Origin: Paenibacillus taiwanensis DSM 18679
Lineage (GTDB): Bacteria; Bacillota; Bacilli; Paenibacillales; Paenibacillaceae
Length of the DNA stretch: 64,000 nucleotides
Direction: 5' to 3'
Assembly (NCBI RefSeq): GCF_000425125.1
Contig: NZ_AULE01000024.1
Coordinates: 124,001 to 188,000, forward strand
Both the position numbers and the translations under genes were made by a program. Numbering within the stretch: position 1 is the stretch's first letter; each line of letters opens with the position of its first letter. The notes under the pieces are model-generated. The model had not been told where the DNA came from, made no database searches, and saw nothing but the letters and a program-made list of their open reading frames with translations. Shown here in pieces: positions 41,375 to 43,750 of the stretch.

Positions 41375-42199
41375 TTGCAAAAGATTGAAGTATTATTAGC
41401 GGATGACAACCGAGAATTTACGAATTTGTTAGCGGATTTCTTGTCGGAGCAGGAAGATATGGTCGTCACGGGTGTTGCCTATAATGGCGAAGAAGTGCTC
41501 CAATTTCTGGAGCAGTCTCGCTCCGTCCCTGACGTCCTTATTCTTGATATTATTATGCCTCACTTAGATGGTTTGGGTGTATTGGAACGATTGCGCCAGC
41601 TTAACTTATCTCCGCAGCCTAAGATCATTATGCTTACTGCATTTGGTCAGGAGAGCATTACACAGCGTGCGGTTCAACTGGGGGCATCTTACTACATATT
41701 AAAACCGTTTGATATGGATGTGTTAGCCAACCGAATTCGTCAGCTTTCTGGCTCTTCTGCGGCTCATATGATATCAAGCTCGAATGCAAGTTCATTTATT
41801 ACGAACTCTTCGTTAAAGTCAAACGTTGTGCCACTTTCGAAGAGCAAAAATTTAGATGCGAATATTACAACTATTATTCATGAAATTGGCGTACCTGCTC
41901 ACATTAAAGGATATCAATATTTGCGTGAAGCCATCACTATGGTGTACAACAATATTGAAATTCTTGGCTCTATTACGAAGACTCTGTACCCAGCCATTGC
42001 CGAGAAATACAAAACGACGCCATCTCGCGTCGAACGTGCAATTCGTCATGCGATTGAAGTCGCTTGGACACGCGGCAACATCGACAGTATTAGTCGATTA
42101 TTTGGTTATACCATTAACATTAGCAAGTCTAAGCCAACTAATAGCGAGTTTATCGCGATGGTAGCTGACAAGCTGAGAATTGAGCATAAAGTCTCGTAA
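41375..42199 (+). CDS. spo0A: Sporulation master response regulator Spo0A
   Basis: Phosphorelay output regulator that commits the cell to sporulation. The 274-residue product has a receiver domain with acidic pocket D10-D11, phosphoacceptor D58 in [12 protein letters not shown] and the conserved lysine in YYILKPFD. A serine-rich linker (about residues 128-150) and the Spo0A-specific DNA-binding domain follow ([36 protein letters not shown]). The start is TTG 41375, 8 bases after GGGAGG. It follows spoIVB, as in all Bacillales, but has its own 0A-box promoter. Confidence 0.97.
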
Positions 42200-42455
42200 A
42201 TGGCGTAGTGGTGCGAGTTTCGGGCGTTGGGGGAAACGTGATTTCCCGATAACTTATCCGCCATGCTAACGAACGTTCTGAAGAACTTTACGTGTAACAT
42301 TGCGATAAATTTTGTACAAATCACCCTCGCTCTCGCCGCTAACTTATTATATGCTATCCAGCGTCCGTGTACCGCGAATCGAAGCGGAGTCCAAGACGGA
42401 TTAACCTCACGATATGCACAGTACATCATTCCCGATGATTATATAGCTAATTAAT

Positions 42456-42500
42456 AACGCGCCCATTGTGCCGATACATTTTCGGAAGTGGGCGCGTTTC
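42456..42500 (+). terminator. Strong terminator 257 bases after spo0A
   Basis: AACGCGCCCA (42456-42465) pairs perfectly with TGGGCGCGTT (42489-42498), followed by TTCGG. The stretch 42200-42455 before it has no gene that I can support; it holds a small CCGC/GCGG hairpin near 42371-42386. The spo0A message may therefore carry a long 3' untranslated region. Confidence 0.75.
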
Positions 42501-42597
42501 GGAATTTTAAGTGAGTTTTACGGTCACAGAGGCACTATCACCCAGATATTCCGATCCGCAAACGTCCGAATGAAGTCAGATAGCAACAATGAGAGTT

Positions 42598-42994
42598 CAA
42601 TACCGTCGTACCCAGCAGAGGGAAGAGTGAGGTAAGATAGGAGTTGTTTCTCCTTTAGCAGATAAGTTTCTCGTATCAGCGGCGATGATTTTGTTAGTGC
42701 AAAATGGTGTTTTGTCTTCGGTATTTGTTATCTACTATTATTAGTAGAGAGGTTGTAATTACTGCGCTTCGAACGTATGCCGCTGCGCGAGGGATTGCAC
42801 TCCTTCAAGCAGACAGTGGGGCAAGATTAAACTAGTAATTCAAGTTGTTGCAATTGTGATGTGTTTATTGGGAAACTTTCCTTTTAGTCTCATTACATCA
42901 ATCCCAGTGCGCTTGATTTCGATATGGGCAGCTGTTCATATTGACGGTTTATTCAGGGGCAAATTATATTGTGAAAAATATAAAATATTTGTAA
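42598..42994 (+). pseudogene. PgsA-like CDP-alcohol phosphatidyltransferase pseudogene (5' truncated, frameshifted)
   Basis: No single open frame crosses this stretch, yet successive frames read as the C-terminal two thirds of PgsA, the enzyme that makes phosphatidylglycerol phosphate. The order is SRGKSEV (42614-42634), then GKIGVVSPLADKFLVSAAM from 42631, then ISREVVITALRTYAAARGI from 42740, then GKIKLVIQVVAIVMCLLGN from 42820, then ILTVYSGANYIVKNIKYL from 42938 to the stop TAA at 42992-42994. At least four frame changes are needed (near 42630, 42737, 42818 and 42935). The N-terminal part with the DG(x)2AR motif is missing or unrecognisable. The sequence between spo0A and GrpB therefore contains the relic of an extra pgsA paralogue; the active copy should lie elsewhere. 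Confidence 0.8.
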
Positions 42995-43071
42995 TAACAT
43001 ACGGCTTCTGTTAGATAAGCGAGAATCACCTTTAGGAGTGACCCAATTCCGTTTTATGTTGGAGGTTTATT

Positions 43072-43617
43072 ATGAGCAAAAATGATGATCAAACTAATTG
43101 GCCCGTCTGGGCAACCGAATTAATTGAAATCGCTGATCCAGACCCTGCATGGTTAGAAAAGGGTAAACAAGAGGAACAACAGCTTTATGAACTTCTTTCA
43201 CCATTTGGAACGAGGGAGGTTAAACATATAGGGAGTACCTCTGTCCCTAATCTCCCTGCAAAACCAATCATCGATATAATGGCTGATGTTGATTCATTTG
43301 AACGGATTACTGATGTTGCTGCGTTGTTATCTAGCTATGACTGGCATTATGTACCTCCTCATTTAGATAATAAAAACTGGAGAAGGTTTTTTGTAAAGGT
43401 CAAAAACGATAAACGTGTAGCTCATCTTCACTTCATGCTAAAGGGAGAACAACGATGGGAAAAACAGTTGCTTTTTCGTGATAAGTTAAGGGGAAATCCG
43501 CAGCTAGCAAATGAATATGCCAATCTCAAAAATAATCTAGCACAGAAATTTAATCTTGATCGTGAAGCCTACACGGAAGCGAAAACAAAATTTGTTGATC
43601 GTGTGCTTAGGTCGTGA
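43072..43617 (+). CDS. GrpB family protein (UPF0157, nucleotidyltransferase-like)
   Basis: A 181-residue soluble protein of the GrpB/UPF0157 family. The motifs EIADPDPAWLEKGKQEE, VKHIGSTSVPNLPAKPIIDI and HLHFMLKGEQRW are characteristic; the IGSTSVP-D pattern is that of the polymerase-beta-like nucleotidyltransferase fold. Substrate and pathway are unknown. The local composition is more AT-rich than the spo0A side, and the gene lies in the accessory stretch after spo0A, which suggests acquisition or relocation. GGAGG precedes the ATG at 43072. Confidence 0.9.
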   Translation: MSKNDDQTNWPVWATELIEIADPDPAWLEKGKQEEQQLYELLSPFGTREVKHIGSTSVPNLPAKPIIDIMADVDSFERITDVAALLSSYDWHYVPPHLDNKNWRRFFVKVKNDKRVAHLHFMLKGEQRWEKQLLFRDKLRGNPQLANEYANLKNNLAQKFNLDREAYTEAKTKFVDRVLRS

Positions 43618-43655
43618 GGCATAACAGTTTAATAGCTACTAGTTCGATGTAAGCA

Positions 43656-43704
43656 AAAAAGACAACTTTTAATCACCATAAATGAGATCATTGTCATCTT
43701 TTTT
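43656..43704 (+). terminator. Terminator after the GrpB-family gene
   Basis: AAAAAAGACAA near 43656-43666 pairs imperfectly with TTGTCATCTTTTTT near 43691-43704 (a two-base bulge). It could work for both convergent genes. Confidence 0.6.
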
Positions 43705-43750
43705 GAGTTTGACTTAAACATGAATACCAATCGATATAAGAAAGGTAGTT

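Follow-up and report, generated by a model that had tools for sequence, protein, structure and literature searches.

Remains of a pgsA-type gene behind spo0A in Paenibacillus taiwanensis, probably of an accessory second type, and the spo0A 3' end as a putative attachment site of mobile elements in relatives

The window analysed here is the whole stretch of 64,000 nucleotides, which belongs to contig C5 in a draft genome of 5.25 Mb and 20 contigs. Behind its spo0A gene, the remains of a gene for a PgsA-type CDP-alcohol phosphatidyltransferase lie in the same slot as an intact gene of the GrpB family. The features of the locus are the following.

41375..42199, + strand: spo0A, intact, with a TTG start, 274 aa
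42456..42499, + strand: inverted repeat, probable terminator of spo0A, AACGCGCCCA..TGGGCGCGTT, recognised by eye
42500..43712, no strand: slot after spo0A, without counterpart in G014; similarity restarts at 43713
42604..42994, + strand: relic of a PgsA-type CDP-alcohol phosphatidyltransferase gene, about residues 66-191 of 195, natural TAA kept; three frame changes and one in-frame TAG close to the 5' edge
42643..42724, + strand: relic, piece 1, VVSPLADK..NGVLSS; the first aspartate of DPLAD is S
42725..42806, + strand: relic, piece 2, in the other frame, IISREVVITALRTYAAARGIAL
42807..42939, + strand: relic, piece 3, in the first frame again, WGKIKLVIQVVAIVMCLLGNFPF..WAAV
42940..42994, + strand: relic, piece 4, ILTVYSGANYIVKNIKYL, stop TAA
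43072..43617, + strand: GrpB-family (PF04229) gene, intact, in the same slot; missing here in the closest relative

The terminator scan did not report the inverted repeat. G003 and G016 share DNA similarity with the window up to 42499/42500, and this conserved repeat looks like a terminator, with the relic sitting beyond it. About 870 bases without an intact gene separate spo0A from the GrpB-family gene. In the closest relative, G014, the Spo0A protein is 99% identical, the similarity of the DNA breaks off where spo0A ends, the slot holds neither PgsA nor GrpB, and the flanking matches are 579 bases apart versus 1520 bases in the window. Close relatives of the GrpB-family gene occur within the genus only in G006 and G005 (62-63% identity), all others reaching at most 43%. 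Comparison of 17 genomes shows that the gene content behind spo0A varies by subclade. In the genomes G024, G054, G109, and G123 (genus g7), two Spo0A matches each were obtained with E values of 1e-100 or better, and these may possibly represent two spo0A genes.

The similarity of 42598-42994 to PgsA, which the initial annotation had pointed out, is borne out by profile searches and by a local DNA-to-protein aligner tolerating frame changes that was written for the analysis of the relic. They identify the relic as a PgsA gene of which two thirds, on the 3' side, are left. In the profile search of the own genome, PF01066 matches G000:C5:166646-166936, i.e., positions 42646-42936 of the window, over profile positions 62-147 with an E value of 1.9e-7, above the family cut-off, and the single frame that was read contains two TAG codons. 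The joined codons match TIGR00560 (E 9.3e-24, model positions 68-178) with 84.9 bits, which is below the cut-off of 109.1 that is curated for the whole protein. In the frameshift-aware alignment, positions 42643-42991 correspond to residues 77-191 of L024, an intact paralogue of 195 aa from G015, with a score of 256, while the controls reached at most 48 in 40 shuffles and at most 42 in 37 other stretches of the window.

This alignment covers 115 joined codons with three frame changes and zero stops. The changes lie at approximately 42724, 42807, and 42940, and the same three were obtained with L024 for all penalties from 8 to 25; with L087 as the reference, a fourth appears at low penalties. 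The broken frame described in the initial annotation is thus upheld, but the number of changes is three and not at least four. With L082 as the reference, the alignment reaches back to 42604 (residue 66) and includes a single TAG and an insert of two codons. Directly behind the last codon, a TAA at 42992-42994 marks the natural end of the gene. At the other end, the first 65-76 codons are missing, in agreement with the earlier statement that the 5' part is gone. Indeed, the alignment of 42200-42640 with residues 1-76 gives a score of 21, which is equalled or exceeded by 94 of 100 shuffles, and a genome-wide search for an orphan N-terminal part of pgsA returned none. A blastn search of 42480-43060 against the 19 genus genomes matched only the sequence itself.

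PF01066 members are found at four places in the genome, namely L001, L002, L003, and the relic. L001 is an intact housekeeping pgsA of 192 aa (TIGR00560, 184 bits) in the arrangement rimO-pgsA-cinA, where the flanking genes are presumed to be rimO and cinA from the look of the neighbouring proteins; an intact pgsA, which had been proposed as a point to check, is therefore present elsewhere in the genome. L002 is a PF01066 member of 179 aa on contig C4, and L003 is a pssA-like gene that scores above the cut-off of TIGR00473.

Every genome of the genus (19, the own genome included) has PF01066 members, and a second PgsA is present in seven of them. Intact copies occur in G007, G015, and G016, and the other four genomes have broken ones: the own genome (G000, the relic), G008 (a stop at codon 6 and a match that ends at residue 84), G018 (about 38 codons lost internally), and G017 (a remnant of 34 residues). 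The second copies of the genus at L056, L057, L058, L025, L026, and L024 point to repeated decay, at different places. Across the family, at least 62 of 245 genomes, about a quarter, carry a second copy, as counted by hand among the matches listed with at least 166 bits to the L024 protein. Carriers of the second type include Paenibacillus cellulosilyticus, P. methanolicus, P. pinihumi, and a Cohnella sp.

The surroundings of these copies are diverse. No rimO or cinA gene lies in the flanks of 35 of 80 PgsA loci, among them the thirty best matches (L128-L157), and the place of the relic, between spo0A and the GrpB-family gene, is also outside rimO-pgsA-cinA. Within the 1.5-kb flanks of 44 second-copy loci, some of which were fetched twice, neither spo0A nor spoIVB nor a GrpB gene was found, and at most five of the 44 loci share any one neighbour gene. 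The Spo0A matches in L144 and L147 (about 30% identity over 87 residues) are other response regulators by reading. Among the matches listed for the 245 genomes, no second copy that was checked adjoins spo0A, and those of G007, G016, and G018 lie some 305-310 kb away from it.

Several comparisons bear on which of the two types the relic descends from. In the frameshift-aware alignment, it scores 256, 250, 240, and 238 against second-type copies and 215 against the own pgsA; as counter-scores, the second-type copy of G007 gives 191, and two housekeeping copies of other species give 224 and 230. The mean identity is 48.0% to 29 second-type proteins and 45.4% to 19 housekeeping proteins. At the seven positions that separate the groups by an 80% rule, the relic has the second-type residue four times, the housekeeping residue zero times, and neither three times. 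Its best matches after itself in 394 family genomes are second-type copies with 50-54% identity. No close relative was found, the best being about 54% identical, and a contig scan with the joined piece gave 269 pattern matches with no relative among them. In a FastTree phylogeny, the relic stands on a long branch that lies between the group of housekeeping copies and that of the second type, and constraining it to the former costs only 5.3 log units, with an AU p value of 0.26 that comes from 2000 replicates (too few per program) and from trees constrained on 18 of 52 sequences. Taken as a whole, the relic is probably of the second, accessory PgsA type, and we infer that it would belong to the second clade.

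The relic is like the second PgsA type of Paenibacillaceae in its best matches and in its place outside the rimO-cinA neighbourhood, whereas the members of that type are intact, keep the motif residues, and occupy other chromosomal places. Likewise, it matches the profiles of PgsA (PF01066, TIGR00560) but has lost the first third, the integrity of the frame, and most of the motif. The motif of the CDP-alcohol phosphotransferases is DxxDGxxAR..GxxxDxxxD, and the residues that are invariant across ten aligned intact second-type copies, D58, D61, G62, A65, R66, G75, D79, and D83, fit this motif. The relic is without D58, D61, G62, A65, and R66 and has a serine in place of D79, and it offers no open reading frame of about 190 aa, given the three frame changes and the absent 5' end. 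Because the gene lacks its first 65-76 codons and retains little of the catalytic motif, no active enzyme could arise from the relic. Given that the frame is broken three times and the catalytic residues are lost, the relic is, to judge from its sequence, a pseudogene without present function. The earlier description of a relic of a pgsA paralogue agrees with the homology, with the intact pgsA elsewhere, and with the loss of the 5' third and of catalytic residues.

The reading that we prefer, with a probability of roughly 0.85, is that the relic is what decay has left, on the 3' side, of a second, accessory gene for phosphatidylglycerophosphate synthase, which came into the variable slot after spo0A in this lineage and subsequently broke down. 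A second pgsA would have been gained horizontally into the slot, and its intact product would have converted CDP-diacylglycerol and glycerol-3-phosphate to phosphatidylglycerophosphate, as any PgsA does. Decay would then have taken the 5' third, introduced three frame changes, and removed the catalytic residues. Redundancy with the housekeeping pgsA would be the likely reason for the loss of this second copy. In the available portions of the literature, no paper was found on a second pgsA in Paenibacillus or on a sporulation pgsA.

A duplicate of the own housekeeping pgsA, transferred to the place behind spo0A and degraded at that site, would come from the same family, it would explain a few common residues such as IISRE and TVYSG..VKN, and the AU test does not reject the housekeeping grouping. 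Nonetheless, the housekeeping copies within the genus hardly differ from one another, the identity of the relic to them is just 40-47%, and three frame changes with no stop in 115 codons would be too few lesions for a neutral divergence of this size. This mismatch between divergence and lesion count, together with the diagnostic positions at 4 to 0 for the second type, makes such a duplicate unlikely, and it was rejected as the first choice. Sequencing or assembly error in an intact gene can be conceived in a draft genome of 20 contigs, but the 5' third is missing both here and elsewhere in the genome, and the first aspartate of DPLAD has become serine. The loss of the 5' third and of catalytic residues means that sequencing error is no explanation. 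The neighbours spo0A, spoIVB, and the GrpB-family gene are whole, as the initial annotation had held in arguing against such an error, and this alternative, the least credible of those weighed here, was discarded.

The initial annotation had also imagined a stage-specific membrane role beside the sporulation master gene. A sporulation-stage PgsA that was once active at the spo0A locus and has since disappeared from this lineage draws on the adjacency of the two genes and on the presence of a second PgsA in about a quarter of the family genomes. Against it, no second copy checked among the matches listed adjoins spo0A, the second copies have no common neighbour genes (at most five of 44 loci), and 18 relatives of the genus have no trace of PgsA behind spo0A. 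An intact counterpart at the same locus in relatives, which had been suggested as a check, is thus lacking in these 18 genomes. In 16 of them, the 1.6 kb after spo0A gave no PgsA trace, with scores of 30-45 against 35-53 for the best of eight shuffles, and those of G018 and G005 top their own shuffles by 3 and 4 points; in two further relatives, 1.0-1.5 kb after spo0A gave none either. The region after spo0A in G010 contains a PgsA match of 13 residues at chance level (E 0.80). The adjacency is a local event and therefore lends no support to a sporulation-stage role. A former role of this kind is very improbable and was dropped.

The slot behind spo0A has a wider significance in relatives of the organism. 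The first sign was found in G009, where a copy of approximately the last 76 codons of spo0A, 85% identical, lies 6.5 kb downstream and a frame-broken tyrosine recombinase gene stands directly after spo0A. A search with this recombinase found it in 13 of 245 family genomes, and in all 13 carriers, it is on the spo0A strand, 152-199 bp after the spo0A match. Four of the 13 have a displaced 3' end of spo0A at the far side; for several of the remaining carriers, the sequence covered extends over a few kb only.

L218-L230 (G202, G201, G213, G217, G211, G059, G151, G027, G031, G104, G011, G117, G009): recombinase loci, after spo0A
G213: perfect 97-bp repeat of the spo0A end, about 15.7 kb apart
G211: displaced spo0A end, 126 of 144 bp
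G104: displaced spo0A end, 167 of 210 bp, then a second recombinase fragment
G009: displaced spo0A end, 215 of 254 bp

The interval in G213 encodes a terminase large subunit, a portal protein, and a major head protein, and is a phage as judged by these predicted genes. Broken recombinases persist in the genus members G009, G010, and G011. Class-wide, the recombinase has matches in 11 of 398 genomes, with spo0A directly upstream in eight, including G059 and G104 of the 13 carriers; the matches L237, L240, and L241 have no spo0A within 1.5 kb, the identity of two of these being only about 34%. The recombinase is also encoded on four IMG/VR contigs, with 68-77% identity, and in two of them (L242 2747-2806 and L245 2720-2821), it is preceded by no more of spo0A than the last 20 or 34 codons, as would be expected of an attP site or of a displaced end. 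On the other side of the spo0A tail in L242, a distant second recombinase (27% identity) lies back to back with the first (1630-2541, - strand). Five records of a phage collection match the recombinase at only 25-27% identity, so that no named phage there is a close carrier. In the same collection, 14 of 50,697 records (H6-H19, MT835504.1 etc., from human fecal samples) encode a C-terminal stretch of Spo0A with 40-73% identity; either attachment-site tails or host DNA that was mis-binned could account for them.

Very probably, a family of phages and integrative elements in Bacilli has its attachment site at the 3' end of spo0A, the last 30-75 codons of which would be replaced on entry. Such elements would restore the gene by carrying its last codons, and would integrate and excise at this point. 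Prophages that interrupt sporulation genes include skin in sigK and SPbeta in spsM. The yin element is a prophage reported to interrupt the sporulation gene yabG of Clostridium botulinum (PMC10747680). Like yin, the spo0A-bound recombinase family of the relatives would be a mobile element attached to a sporulation gene; unlike yin, skin, and SPbeta, the element of the relatives appears to supply the last codons of spo0A and to leave the gene whole. No description of spo0A as an attachment site was found in the accessible portions of the literature searched, and none is given in the available parts of PMC5749712, PMC5027557, and PMC6907783. The last of these reports an enrichment of Spo0A_C (PF08769) among the mobile elements of gut Firmicutes (PMC6907783), which may share its cause with the spo0A-attached elements.

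It may be asked whether such an element also explains the window. The relic and the GrpB-family gene could be leftover cargo of a mobile element using the 3' end of spo0A, which would be an addition to the best explanation. The regular position of the recombinase (152-199 bp after spo0A in all 13 carriers), its broken copies in three genus members (G009, G010, and G011), and the variation of the slot between subclades are in favour of this possibility. Conversely, the window has no trace of the recombinase behind spo0A (a score of 36, where shuffles attain up to 44), the 21.8 kb downstream of the gene contain no displaced spo0A end, and neither PgsA nor GrpB was seen by eye in the element interiors that were read. 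Among relatives, the recombinase score of G014 is 52 against at most 42 in six own shuffles, which is marginal, and those of G002, G005, and G016 lie 2 to 6 points above the six shuffles of their own sequences. Direct membership of the slot of the window in a spo0A-attached element was rejected, given that neither a recombinase trace behind spo0A nor a displaced end within 21.8 kb was detected. An origin of the relic and its neighbour as element cargo is therefore doubtful, and so is, to the same degree, the combined proposition that the spo0A 3' end is an attachment site in Bacilli and that the pgsA relic and its GrpB-family neighbour are what such an element left behind.

The relic is an ordinary pseudogene of little importance, one of four broken copies among the seven second pgsA genes of the genus, and its position next to spo0A says nothing about function. 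Of greater weight is the family of spo0A-attached phages in relatives. If spo0A is indeed their attachment site, the gene that decides on sporulation would receive its last codons from phages, and the effect of integration and excision on the level of Spo0A or on the timing of sporulation would be directly testable in laboratory strains.
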